Made by a program: the position numbers and the translations under genes
In this document: piece after piece, positions 27,386-31,555 of the stretch
How positions within the stretch are numbered: the first letter of the stretch is position 1
How the letters are laid out: every line of letters begins with the position of its first letter
The notes under the pieces: generated by a model
Told to the model about the DNA's origin: nothing
Databases searched by the model: none
Seen by the model: the letters and a program-made list of their open reading frames with translations, nothing else
NCBI RefSeq assembly: GCF_016901575.1
Contig: NZ_JACJKQ010000011.1
Span: 1 to 64,000, forward strand
Source of the DNA: Enorma phocaeensis
GTDB lineage: Bacteria; Actinomycetota; Coriobacteriia; Coriobacteriales; Coriobacteriaceae
DNA length: 64,000 bases
Reading direction: 5' to 3'

Positions 27386-27685
27386 GGTCGCGCCTTCTCT
27401 AGGGTCTGTTCAGGTGGAGCCAGGGCCAGCGCCGCGGGCTCGCGTTCCATTGTGCCGCATCTGCCGGGCGATGCAAGGAGCCCGACAGATGCCTTGCCCA
27501 GGGAGCGGCATCGCGCCATGTTTTGCGACGCGGCACGGCTCGGCACGGCGGCCGCGCCCGTCTCGACGAGGTCGCCCCTCTGAGGCAGTGTTTGTTGCTC
27601 TATGCATGGCTTGATGTCATCTACCGAACATGTATGCATCGATTATTCATGGCAAAAAGAAAAAAGTCTCAGGAGGGGCTCAAAC
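27386..27685. other. Intergenic region without a gene
   Basis: The ~300 bp before the palindromic repeats hold no convincing open frame. AT content rises from about 27590. The rest of the gap to 27899 contains two family A palindromes. Confidence 0.5.
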
Positions 27686-27754
27686 TGTGCAAAAAATCGA
27701 TTTGTCGGTCATGGTGGGCGCATTATCGCGACCGACAAATCGACTATTTGCACA
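27686..27754. repeat. Palindromic repeat family A, copy 2
   Basis: The left arm 27686-27710 is identical over 25 bases to the arm at 11289. The right arm 27730-27754 differs at two positions. The centre is 19 bp, compared with 102 bp in copy 1. Confidence 0.9.
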
Positions 27755-27768
27755 CGTCACTGGCTGAA

Positions 27769-27837
27769 GGTGCAAAAAAGCCGATTGTCGGCCATGCATA
27801 ATCGAGCTCCTTGACCGACAAATCGACTTTTTGCACA
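27769..27837. repeat. Palindromic repeat family A, copy 3
   Basis: The right arm 27813-27837 (GACCGACAAATCGACTTTTT start) matches the family with one change. The left arm 27769-27793 is more diverged. It follows copy 2 after 14 bp. Confidence 0.85.
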
Positions 27838-27899
27838 GAATGCCTCTATTTGCGTGATTAGCGCTATAACGTGCGAGATTGACGCTGCGAAGCGCCTCT

Positions 27900-28646
27900 C
27901 TACAGCAGGATGCCTGCGACGATGAGCGCGATGCACGCCGCAAAGGCAGCGATGTCGATCCCGCGGACGGGGTAGCGCTTGTAGGAGCTTGCCCGCGTGC
28001 GCAGATAGAAGCCGCGCTGCTCGGCTGCGAGGGCGCTCGCGTCGGTCTTGCTGACCGATGAGATGAGCAGCGGCACGCACAGCGGCAGCATGAGCTGGAG
28101 CTTCTTGATGGGGTTTTTGGTATCGTATTCGACCCCGCGCGCCGTCTGGGCCTCCATGATGGCGTTCATCTCCTGCGAGAACACCGGCACGAATCGCAGC
28201 GCCGTGGTGAAGGTGAACGCGTACTTGTAGGGAACGTGCAGCTTTTCCACGCAGGCGTTTGCGAGGTCGGTGAGCTTGGTCACCATGAGCATGAGCACGA
28301 GCGGGAGCGCAACGCCCAGCAGGCGCAGGCAGGCCTTGCCGCCGGTGATGAGCCCCTCGTCGGTGGCGAAGGCGACCACGGGCGTGCCGCTGCGCACAAA
28401 GGCGAGCTGCAAAAGAAGCATGATGAGCGCCACGGGCACGAGCAGCTTGAGCAGGCGGGCGAGCCTTCCGAGCACGCCCGCGTAGGCAGCGAGCAGCAGG
28501 GTGATCGCGAGCAGTCCCACGAGGGCGGGGTAGCCGTCCGACAAGAAGGTCGCGGCGATGATGGATGCGGCGAGCGCCAGCTTGGCGACGGGGTTCAGGC
28601 GGTGCAGAAGGGTGTCGCCAGGTACGTAGTCGATCACGTTAAGCAT
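27900..28646 (-). CDS. ecfT: ECF transporter transmembrane subunit EcfT
   Basis: The 248-residue membrane protein has RLNPVAKLALAASIIAATFL at its start and the EcfT coupling motifs EAQTARGVEYD and AEQRGFYLRTR (Ala-Arg-Gly type). These contact the ATPases. EcfT links the two ATPases to a substrate-binding S component. ATG 28646 overlaps the end of the ATPase gene by 8 bp and follows AAAGGAG; an upstream TTG is less likely. It is the last gene of an operon with the ATPase (28639) and S component (30584), under a Trp attenuator. Confidence 0.88.
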   Translation of the reverse strand: MLNVIDYVPGDTLLHRLNPVAKLALAASIIAATFLSDGYPALVGLLAITLLLAAYAGVLGRLARLLKLLVPVALIMLLLQLAFVRSGTPVVAFATDEGLITGGKACLRLLGVALPLVLMLMVTKLTDLANACVEKLHVPYKYAFTFTTALRFVPVFSQEMNAIMEAQTARGVEYDTKNPIKKLQLMLPLCVPLLISSVSKTDASALAAEQRGFYLRTRASSYKRYPVRGIDIAAFAACIALIVAGILL

Positions 28647-30459
28647 GGTCTGCAAGCTCCTTTACGCGGCGGACGATGTCGCTGACCTCGGAGATGTGGG
28701 CAAACGTTGGCGAGACGTCGCGAGCGAGGCGCCCGGCGAGGTCGATGACCTGCGGGGGCGTGACGCTGGCGCGCGCCATGAGCTCGGAGTCGGCGAAGAG
28801 CTCCGAGGCGGGGCCGCGCCCCAGGATGCGCCCGTCCGCCATGACCACGATGCGCTCGGCGAAGTCGCTCACGACCTCCATGTCGTGGCAAACCATGATG
28901 ACGGCGCAGCCCTTGTCCGCCATGTCGCGCACGGTCTCCATCACGGTCATGCATTCCCGGTAGTCCAGGCCGCTCGTAGGCTCGTCGAGTACGACGACGT
29001 CGGGGTTCATGACCACGACGCCGGCGAGCGCCACCATCTGGCGCTGTCCGCGCGAGAGCGAGAAGGGGGCCTCGTCGCGGGGCAGCCCGAAGCGGTCGAT
29101 GACCGTCTCCGCCCGCCGCTGCGCCTCGCGCGAGTCGACGCCCTGCAGCTCCAGCCCGAAGGCGACCTCTTCGATGACGGTGTTCTTGCAGATCTGCCGG
29201 TCGGGATTCTGGAACAGCGTGGACACGTGCGCCGCGATCGCCGAGACGGGGTTCTCGCCCGTGTCGAGCCCGGCGACGCGCACCCTGCCCCTGCTGGGTC
29301 GCAGCAGGCCGTTCAGCAGCTTGGTGAGGGTGGTCTTGCCCGCGCCGTTCTGGCCGACGACGCCCACGAGCTCGCCGGGATAGACCTCGAGCGAGAGGTC
29401 CTCGACGCTCGCGCCCCCGCCGGGATAGGTGAAGCCAACGTGCTCGAAGGTCAGCACGGGCGCGGCTCCCTCGGCATGCGGGCGCCGGGGGGCATGCGGG
29501 GAAGGCGTCGCCGCATGCGGGGTCGCGGACGTCTGGCCGGCGGCGCAGGCGTCCGCTGCGGCAGGGGCGGCGTCGGCACCTGCGGCGCCCGGGCCCGTCG
29601 CGTCGGCGCGGCGGATGATCTGCGCGATCAGGTCGTGCGCCTCCTCGACATTGAGGCAGGGGTCGTCGGCAGCGCACAGCCCCGCGGCGGCGAGGCTGTT
29701 GGAAATGCGTGCGGTGCGGGGGCTGTCAACGCCGAGCTCCCTCAAGAGCTCCGCGCGGCGAAACACCTCGTGCGGCGAGCCCTCGAGCGCGATGCCTCCC
29801 CGATCCATGACCACGATGCGGTTGCAGTGGCTCGAGAGCAGCGCGACCTTCTGCTCGATGACGATGACGGTGATGCCGAGGCGGCGGTTGATGTCGGCGA
29901 GGGTGTCGAAGACCACCTGCGAGCTCACCGGGTCGAGCGCGGCGGTGGGCTCGTCGAGCACGAGCACGCGCGGCTCGAGCGCCAGGATGGCGGCGATGGC
30001 GACCTTCTGCTTCTGCCCTCCCGAGAGCGTGGCGATCTCGCGGTGGCGAAGCTCGGAGATGCCCGCCGTCTCGAGCGTGCGCGCGATGCGCCCCTCGATC
30101 TGGTCGTGGGGCACCCCGAAGTTCTCAAGTCCGAAGAGCAGCTCGTCCTCGACTACCGAGGCGACCATCTGCGCGTCGATGTCCTGGGCGACCGATCCCA
30201 CGGTGCGCGAGATGTCGGTGAGGGTGATCTCGCAGGTATCGTGCCCCGCGACGCGCGTGGCGCCGTAGAGCTCGCCGGTGAAATGGTGGGGGATCGCGCC
30301 CGAGAGGCATGCGGCGAGCGTCGACTTGCCTGCGCCCGAAGGACCGATGATGCCCAAAAAGTCTCCCTCTTCAACGCGGAGGGAGACGTCCGAGAGCGCG
30401 CGACGCGCGTCGGCGTCGTAGGAAAACGAGACGCCGTCCATCTCGATGATTGCTGCCAT
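28639..30459 (-). CDS. ecfA: ECF transporter ATPase, two fused ABC domains (EcfA-EcfA')
   Basis: The 606-residue protein contains two complete ABC units. The first has IIGPSGAGKSTLAACLSG, TLSGGQKQKVAIAA and VLVLDEPTAALDP. The second has VVGQNGAGKTTLTKLLNG, SLSRGQRQMVALAG and VVVLDEPTSGLD. An Ala/Pro-rich linker (about residues 300-355) joins them. The second signature reads LSRGQ instead of LSGGQ. The fusion replaces the EcfA1/EcfA2 pair and energises uptake with EcfT. ATG 30459 follows GGAAAGG. A hairpin (30536-30563) separates it from the S-component gene. Confidence 0.9.
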   Translation of the reverse strand: MAAIIEMDGVSFSYDADARRALSDVSLRVEEGDFLGIIGPSGAGKSTLAACLSGAIPHHFTGELYGATRVAGHDTCEITLTDISRTVGSVAQDIDAQMVASVVEDELLFGLENFGVPHDQIEGRIARTLETAGISELRHREIATLSGGQKQKVAIAAILALEPRVLVLDEPTAALDPVSSQVVFDTLADINRRLGITVIVIEQKVALLSSHCNRIVVMDRGGIALEGSPHEVFRRAELLRELGVDSPRTARISNSLAAAGLCAADDPCLNVEEAHDLIAQIIRRADATGPGAAGADAAPAAADACAAGQTSATPHAATPSPHAPRRPHAEGAAPVLTFEHVGFTYPGGGASVEDLSLEVYPGELVGVVGQNGAGKTTLTKLLNGLLRPSRGRVRVAGLDTGENPVSAIAAHVSTLFQNPDRQICKNTVIEEVAFGLELQGVDSREAQRRAETVIDRFGLPRDEAPFSLSRGQRQMVALAGVVVMNPDVVVLDEPTSGLDYRECMTVMETVRDMADKGCAVIMVCHDMEVVSDFAERIVVMADGRILGRGPASELFADSELMARASVTPPQVIDLAGRLARDVSPTFAHISEVSDIVRRVKELADHA

Positions 30460-30583
30460 GAGAGCCTTTCCGCCGCGCCGCCGCGGCCATGTCGTGCTGC
30501 CTTCAGGAGTCGCGGGCAGCATATCACAGAAACGGCCCCGGACGGCCTGCGCGGCGTCCGGGGCATGGTTGCTGGGCACGGGG

Positions 30584-31165
30584 CTAGTCGTTCAGCTTGA
30601 GCGCCTTCTTGACGGGGATGTAGAGCGCGCCCACGAGCACCGCGTTGAACACGGCGGTGAGGGCGACGACCGGCAGCATCGCGGCGGCGATGGCCATGTC
30701 GAACTGCATGACGGCCATGCGGATGAGCATGAAGATGAAGCCCGAGACGAAGGTGGTCACGAAGGTGCCCACGGTGGGGACGACGGCCTTGGCGGGGGTC
30801 TTCATGCCGGCGTTCACGATGAGCGCCATGAGCATGGCGGCGATGCCCTCTGCCACGAAGTCCGCGCCGGGCAGGCTCGTGGTGATCTGGATCACGGCGG
30901 CGGAGACCAAGCCGATGACGAGCGCCTGGAGCAGGCCGGGGCGCACCACCAAGATGGTGAGGCAGAAGGCGGAGATGATGAACTCGGGGCTGATGAGGTT
31001 GCCCGAGATGGCGCCGATGGCCTTGCCGGCCGTCATGTTGAGGATGAAGCCCGCGGCCAGAAGGACGGCGAGCAGGACGAGGGCCTTGATGTCGAGCTTG
31101 CCGCGGTCGGGGGAGGAGACGGTGCGGGCGGCGGTGCGGGGCTGGGAGGAGAGCTGCTGGGACAT
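30584..31165 (-). CDS. ECF transporter S component, predicted tryptophan uptake
   Basis: The 193-residue protein has six predicted membrane segments, starting LDIKALVLLAVLLAAGFILN. It continues GNLISPEFIISAFCLTILVV, and the last span leads to IPVKKALKLND. The size and fold fit a TrpP-like substrate-binding S subunit. The substrate is predicted from regulation, not from binding residues: a leader peptide with three consecutive Trp codons and an attenuator precedes it. ATG 31165 is used; the upstream TTG in the same frame would add three residues. The downstream genes encode the ATPase and EcfT. Confidence 0.8.
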   Translation of the reverse strand: MSQQLSSQPRTAARTVSSPDRGKLDIKALVLLAVLLAAGFILNMTAGKAIGAISGNLISPEFIISAFCLTILVVRPGLLQALVIGLVSAAVIQITTSLPGADFVAEGIAAMLMALIVNAGMKTPAKAVVPTVGTFVTTFVSGFIFMLIRMAVMQFDMAIAAAMLPVVALTAVFNAVLVGALYIPVKKALKLND

Positions 31166-31294
31166 GGTGGTCAACCTTTCTCGAGGATGCCGGCAAAGCG
31201 GCTGGTGAAGCTTCGTGTCGCGGTGCGACGTCGGGGGCGCGTGATGCGAGGGGAATCGGTCTCAAGGGGTCGCGGGGGCCGCAGATAACAAAAA

Positions 31295-31316
31295 AGCCCC
31301 CGGTCTCCCGGGGGCT
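31295..31316 (-). terminator. Attenuator terminator of the ECF operon
   Basis: On the minus strand AGCCCCCGG pairs with CCGGGGGCT across a four-base loop, followed by TTTTTTG. It lies between the leader peptide and the S-component gene, so it must be read through for expression. Confidence 0.9.
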
Positions 31317-31322
31317 CCGTGC

Positions 31323-31391
31323 CGCCTGTCTAAGAGATAGGCGTGATGGATCTCACCGTCGACCGACCGTATTCACATCACGCCACCACCA
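31323..31391 (-). promoter_or_regulatory. Tryptophan attenuator pairing segments
   Basis: The three Trp codons are at 31383-31391. Segment 1 (31376-31384, GGCGTGATG on the minus strand) pairs over 9 bp with segment 2 (31340-31348). Segment 2 can also start a second hairpin at 31323-31343. A ribosome stalled at the Trp codons would cover segment 1 and free segment 2. The exact antiterminator that blocks the 31295 terminator is not resolved by eye. Confidence 0.7.
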
Positions 31392-31424
31392 GTTCATGCG
31401 AGCGGTGCAAAGTGCGTTCTTCAT
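31353..31424 (-). CDS. trp-type leader peptide with three consecutive Trp codons
   Basis: The 23-codon frame encodes MKNALCTARMNWWW followed by RDVNTVGRR and stop. GAAAGGAGCCACCAGC precedes the ATG. Three adjacent Trp codons in a short peptide upstream of a terminator are the hallmark of ribosome-mediated attenuation. The peptide itself is not expected to have a function. It reports the supply of charged tRNA-Trp to the ECF operon downstream. Confidence 0.88.
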   Translation of the reverse strand: MKNALCTARMNWWWRDVNTVGRR

Positions 31425-31475
31425 GCTGGTGGCTCCTTTCGTGGTAGGGGCCCGAAGGCCTTTCAAGCGATTGAG

Positions 31476-31506
31476 GGCACTATAGCATAGCGAAGTGCCT
31501 TCGTAA
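31476..31506 (-). promoter_or_regulatory. Promoter of the leader peptide and ECF operon
   Basis: Reading the minus strand, TTACGA (31501-31506), a 16-bp spacer and TATAGT (31479-31484) form a promoter about 50 bp upstream of the leader ATG. GGCACT/AGTGCC forms an inverted repeat over the -10 (31476-31499) and could be an operator. Confidence 0.55.
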
Positions 31507-31555
31507 GCGCGCACGCAAAAGATTGCGAGCATGTTTCCTGCGGGGCGGGCCGGGC

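Follow-up and report, generated by a model that had tools for sequence, protein, structure and literature searches.

We conclude that the genes of a self-contained ECF importer in Enorma phocaeensis are preceded by a ribosome-mediated attenuator that probably senses charged tRNA-Trp, and that the TrpP-like S component of this importer most likely binds tryptophan; we assign this reading a probability of roughly 0.9. As judged from the sequences compared, all parts of such a switch are present and conserved, its antiterminator covaries between loci, and at orthologous genes the switch is replaced by Trp-specific T-boxes. The locus lies in a window (the whole stretch of DNA that was analyzed) of 64,000 nt from assembly GCF_016901575.1, contig NZ_JACJKQ010000011.1, in which the switch occupies positions 31487-31290 of the minus strand. 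Leader nucleotides are numbered from the first base of the run of Trp codons (nt 1), such that nucleotide n corresponds to window position 31392 - n. The features of the locus are listed below in the direction of transcription.

31502-31507, minus strand: weak -35 element CTTACG, a poor match.
31479-31487, minus strand: extended -10 promoter element TGCTATAGT (TGnTATAGT), found at a constant distance in many Collinsella-type loci.
31433-31437, minus strand: Shine-Dalgarno sequence AGGAG of the leader peptide, identified from the sequence; most related loci have GGAG ahead of their leader.
31353-31424, minus strand: leader peptide ORF MKNALCTARMNWWWRDVNTVGRR, 23 codons, with ATG at 31424 and stop codon at 31355-31353; all 79 loci that include upstream DNA have an NWWWR-type leader.
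31383-31391, minus strand: sensing site, three adjacent Trp codons UGGUGGUGG (WWW).
31376-31384, minus strand: 5′ arm of the protector stem (region 1), GGCGUGAUG, nt 8-16, overlapping the last Trp codon; the helix is kept through changes on both sides.
31361-31366, minus strand: 5′ strand of the antiterminator, UCGGUC (nt 26-31), just 5′ of the leader stop codon; identified from the GGT codon constraint and a helix scan.
31340-31348, minus strand: 3′ arm of the protector stem (region 2), CAUCACGCC, nt 44-52; the helix is kept through changes on both sides.
31323-31343, minus strand: CGCCU/AGGCG hairpin (31343-31339 with 31327-31323), the apical part of the antiterminator fold; its sequence is poorly conserved between loci.
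31300-31305, minus strand: 3′ strand of the antiterminator, GACCGG, comprising the terminator loop and the start of its 3′ arm; identified by the helix scan and swap tests.
31290-31318, minus strand: intrinsic terminator GGAGCCCCCGG-GAGA-CCGGGGGCUUU with its U tract; 11 pairs (31318-31293), -22.8 kcal/mol.
30584-31174, minus strand: TrpP-like ECF S component, with a conserved-start ATG at 31165; identified by profile and fold searches.
28639-30462, minus strand: fused ECF ATPases A1-A2; TIGR04520 and TIGR04521 above cut-off.
27900-28655, minus strand: ECF T component (CbiQ family); PF02361.

A first interpretation of this DNA, made from the letters alone (hereafter the sequence-only reading), had placed the S, fused A and T genes of an ECF transporter behind the leader. 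This was confirmed, since one operon downstream of it encodes S and T components together with two ECF ATPases. Against the Pfam TrpP profile (PF17099), the S component of the window scored 16.2 bits, below the cut-off of 27.2 bits; 28 of 30 members of the S family matched the profile when E-values as high as 10 were accepted, the best of them at 2.9e-7, and an S orthologue controlled by a T-box (L121) reached 47.1 bits (3e-12). In many genomes (L091-L098, L107, L110-L112), the S gene is immediately followed by another one, S2; the S2 protein of L091 scored 33.5 bits (4.5e-8), and the ligand of S2 may differ. When a fold model of S (mean pLDDT 77) was used for searching, the ECF S components RibU and PanT were listed first, with modest E-values, and sequence searches of S against the PDB gave no useful match. 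The TrpP protein of Bacillus subtilis is controlled by TRAP, whereas the window-type S component is accompanied by its own A-A and T genes and appears to be controlled by an attenuator or a T-box. What the S family shares with TrpP is a full-length profile match (best 3e-12) and the ECF S fold, and TrpP (PF17099), a tryptophan transporter, is counted as an S component (PMC11487621). Two imperfect inverted-repeat units (GTGCAAAAAATCGATTTGTCGGTC) with 25-nt arms, 83 nt apart, also lie at 27685-27838, in the gap that separates the T gene from the gene downstream of it; they may represent terminators or a small repeat element.

The proposed promoter was found to have a good extended -10 element and, because its -35 element is poor, a scan of the leader region found no consensus sigma-70 site. 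The 23-codon leader with three adjacent Trp codons is present on the minus strand as described and is kept in related bacteria. Our comparison was based on ~140 relatives, and a search for S in named bacterial genomes yielded 80 loci, 79 of them with upstream DNA, in Collinsella, Olsenella, Thermophilibacter, Tractidigestivibacter, Parafannyhessea, Slackia, Enorma, and relatives. Every one of the 79 carries a leader with a Trp run, which is WWW in 78 and WW in one (L034), and the stop codon follows the last Trp codon at a distance of 9 codons in 80 of 80 leaders, the window included. A leader that is present at every locus with constant spacing is therefore not a product of chance. The leader RNA of the window, moreover, folds more stably than all 200 of its shuffles (z = -4.5). 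The 3′ end of the leaders follows the pattern ...GGT-CGA/CAA-NNN-stop, in which the Gly codon is GGT in all 80 leaders (window included), as compared with 69 of 1,142 Gly codons (6%) in the S genes, and the constraint therefore acts on the RNA.

The sequence-only reading had also reported a 9-bp stem that overlaps the last Trp codon, a strong terminator, and an alternative hairpin. The first two are present as protector stem (31384-31376 with 31348-31340) and as the 11-pair terminator listed above; two terminator-like sites, of which the window's terminator is one, were found in 501 nt against an expectation of 0.3. Protector stem and terminator covary, with 33 double-change cells compared with 7.8 in shuffles. 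The third claim stood in part: the CGCCU/AGGCG hairpin exists, but folding with the antiterminator enforced favors interpreting it as the apex of a longer antiterminator.

The core of that antiterminator, a helix of 31366-31361 with 31305-31300, had been overlooked. In a scan of the alignment for all possible 5-bp helices, CGGUC:GACCG ranked at the top, being paired in 37 of 37 representatives; it joins leader columns 27-31 with terminator columns 93-97 in 100% of rows, and the same scan gave lower values of 0.95 for the protector stem and 0.94 for the terminator. The longest helix at this site measured 6-14 bp in nearly all of 61 leaders. Close relatives hardly vary in the core helix and leave the covariation count nothing to score, so that the covariation rests on divergent loci, which change both strands together. 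One of these, L140, replaces both strands (CGGAUUAUCG:CGGUAAUCCG), and its stop codon comes earlier, yet the pairing segment begins at nt 27; the strands are CGGGUUAUCG:CGGUAAUCCG in L220, GGUCGAUG:CAUCGGCC in L148, and, over 14 bp, CCCUCGGUCAACUC:GAGUUGGUCGGGGG in L152. Cognate leader-terminator pairs were more stable than swapped pairs both in 61 loci (1/10,000 permutations) and in 19 diverse loci (1/50,000 permutations), in tests that leave relatedness in and for which the diverse set was picked to limit the effect of kinship. The leader segments nt 1-20 and nt 41-60, which served as controls in the swap tests, had no such complementarity to the terminator.

In the window, the antiterminator core comprises only 6 bp (-7.7 kcal/mol, compared with -22.8 kcal/mol for the terminator). 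When the antiterminator is enforced, the leaders fold into a long imperfect hairpin that on average pairs 74% of the terminator 5′ arm. An inner helix within it (columns 38-43 with 80-85) is kept in 77.5% of cells with covariation not above that of shuffles, and is therefore only suggested. As the alignments have it, the core reaches into the terminator loop and 3′ arm, which is an unusual reach for an antiterminator.

Based on these elements, we propose that when tryptophan is plentiful, the ribosome would reach the leader stop codon and cover nt 26-33 (CGGUCGA), so that the terminator would form and the operon would be off. When charged tRNA-Trp is scarce, the ribosome would stall on the UGG run, and its front edge, at about nt 20, would block the protector stem. 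The CGGUCGA segment would thereby be left free to pair with the emerging terminator loop and 3′ arm, the pairing would extend over the terminator 5′ arm, and RNA polymerase would read into the S, A-A, and T genes. If the leader were not translated at all, the protector stem would enclose CGGUCGA. It is from this arrangement that we infer ribosome stalling and read-through in vivo.

The competing folds that the sequence-only reading had envisaged were followed with partition functions on a growing transcript. A ribosome with the third Trp codon in its A site has its front edge at about nt 20, and with nt 1-20 masked, 58 of 61 leaders gave an antiterminator probability above 0.5 during emergence of the 3′ arm. 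When the mask was extended, the antiterminator survived to about nt 26 and was gone at nt 28-30, which is where a ribosome that has moved past the Trp codons would reach; with a mask at the stop codon, it was zero by construction. In this in silico geometry, the antiterminator strand is thus free when the ribosome is stalled and masked when it is at the stop codon. The untranslated leader of the window gave an antiterminator probability of 0.00, because the protector stem encloses the strand, and in the untranslated leaders of many relatives the antiterminator partly formed (mean 0.53), such that the default state is less certain in those relatives. In the full-length transcript at equilibrium, the terminator was always more stable, as it is in classical attenuators; given this and the short core, the decision between the two folds must be kinetic.

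In its logic, the switch is a classical trp attenuator. Like the attenuator of the enterobacterial trp operon (trpL), it has Trp codons in a short leader ORF, a stem over these codons, a mutually exclusive antiterminator and terminator, and a stop codon positioned to mask the antiterminator strand. In contrast to trpL, it precedes genes for uptake rather than biosynthesis, and the core of its antiterminator engages the loop and the 3′ arm of the terminator rather than the 5′ arm alone. The Rfam model RF00513 (Trp_leader) aligns end to end (model positions 1-100 of 100) at 31394-31288 with 22.4 bits (E 0.026) and does not reach the gathering score of 41 bits; with a score so far below the threshold, the leader is not filed as Trp_leader. 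In Corynebacterium and Streptomyces, predicted trp attenuators precede trp operons and trpS (PMC1262725). These are likewise actinobacterial, with double or triple UGG codons in the leader and GC-rich terminators, but they share a gGCC-rGCy-GGCC triple, whereas the class described here has the invariant CGGUC:GACCG and is found at genes for transporters and TrpB2.

In a class-wide sample, an S homologue was present in 205 of 398 genomes, and a phylum sample of 296 genomes gave matches only within the order to which the host belongs. Among second-site hits of the RNA model, those with E above ~1e-4 were taken as noise. Among 100 S loci inspected, 63 have a Trp-codon leader (W-A-W in one, L171) and 33 have a T-box. 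Two of the remaining loci lie inside operons headed by an attenuator, and two from a single genus (L159, L160) have neither; they keep S and a similar terminator (GTTGACCGGGAG) but have lost the Trp leader.

The T-boxes were found at the S orthologues of Eggerthellaceae in 12 of 12 loci tested, with scores of 56-77 bits that lie below the gathering score of 93 for RF00230; a search at the gathering threshold misses them, and E-value mode detects them. In 31 of 33 cases the specifier loop has the sequence AAA-UGG, and in 32 of 33 the bulge UGGN carries C. The tRNA-Trp genes of 12 genomes have the discriminator G73, which the bulge C fits, arguing for Trp-specific T-boxes. The discriminator of bacterial tRNA-Met is A73, and reading the specifier as AUG (Met; AAAUGG as AUG-G) was rejected on account of the bulge C together with the G73 of tRNA-Trp. 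Such a T-box likewise reads the charging of tRNA-Trp, but it uses no ribosome or leader peptide, and an Rfam search found none at the window locus. Kept Trp codons, a covarying antiterminator, and the UGG T-boxes of orthologues all favor the original suggestion that scarcity of charged tRNA-Trp switches the operon on. As separate observations, the sub-threshold UGG-specifier T-boxes upstream of S (L121-L150, L184-L190) would be missed by annotation pipelines, and the only T-box match in the host genome (L227, G000:C1:159638-159939, 59 bits) precedes an ileS-like gene.

A search of the host genome (99.8% complete) that covered TrpA, TrpB, and TrpC found no TrpA, no TrpC, and no standard TrpB; a TrpB2-like enzyme (L081) is retained. 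A WWW leader of the same class as that of the window precedes an SNF-family sodium symporter in L215-L219, the nearest solved relative of which is MhsT, a hydrophobic amino acid transporter; in L216-L219, the neighborhood of the leader showed no S homologue. In L220 and L223, the attenuator heads an operon of TrpB2 and an S-A fusion, which links salvage of indole to tryptophan with the importer. Five convergent lines of evidence, namely the Trp codons, the T-boxes, the TrpP match, the shared leader, and the missing TrpA, TrpC, and standard TrpB, point to tryptophan as the probable ligand, and much the same observations (TrpP similarity, T-boxes of orthologues, leaders at TrpB2 and the MhsT-like symporter, missing TrpA and TrpC) speak for the Trp-related substrate that had been suggested for the transporter. 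We consider it likely that the Coriobacteria have a hitherto undescribed tRNA-Trp regulon, in which one class of attenuator, capturing the terminator loop, 3′ arm, and 5′ arm, serves a Trp ECF importer, an MhsT-like symporter, and TrpB2, and is exchanged for a Trp T-box at the importer gene of Eggerthellaceae. A literature search of partial coverage found no description of the attenuator, the regulon, the alternation with T-boxes, or a Trp-specific ECF operon in these bacteria.

The attenuator might sense tRNA-Trp while the importer carries a precursor or relative of tryptophan, such as indole, another aromatic compound, or a Trp peptide. The TrpB2-like enzyme of the host could convert indole and serine to tryptophan, TrpB2 and S share one attenuated operon in two genomes, and the S component of the window is only distantly TrpP-like. 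On the other hand, indole passes membranes freely, the co-regulated symporter is nearest to MhsT, and the Pfam family TrpP is named after tryptophan transport, and we regard a substrate other than tryptophan as rather unlikely. Much less probable still is a leader of the TnaC or drug type, in which free tryptophan or some other small molecule, and not an empty A site, would cause the nascent peptide to arrest the ribosome. The E. coli tna operon does have a Trp-related leader peptide, tnaC, and includes a Trp permease, and the residues around WWW are often conserved in the present leaders (N ahead of the run, R behind it, and G-R/Q at the leader end). However, tnaC answers high free tryptophan with one critical Trp codon, whereas the window has a run of Trp codons and would answer scarcity of charged tRNA-Trp. 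In divergent loci, the residues beside the Trp run differ (AWWWHKSR, QWWWNNLSFSGQR, VWWWHMDSRFGRL), and what persists is only the Trp codons and the RNA pairing; the conservation at the leader end is explained at the RNA level by the invariant GGT, and the orthologues use T-boxes, which are readers of uncharged tRNA. A plain terminator behind a short ORF that arose by chance, or a riboswitch that binds Trp with no role for translation, would account for a terminator that is strong on its own but is already contradicted by the invariant Trp-codon spacing, Shine-Dalgarno sequence, and reading frame across 79 loci, and by the lack of any Rfam riboswitch match at the window locus.

With attenuation by tRNA-Trp thus the preferred reading, its short parts and specific predictions make it directly testable with a reporter. 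The exchange of an attenuator for a T-box at one gene within one order provides a clean case for the study of switch replacement. Vitamins and metals are the main substrates known for ECF importers, and the comparative evidence would assign one such importer to tryptophan, drawing on two unrelated sensors of tRNA-Trp at orthologous genes. Collinsella and the relatives of Eggerthella are common gut bacteria, and the assignment predicts how Trp auxotrophs among them may use host and dietary tryptophan.
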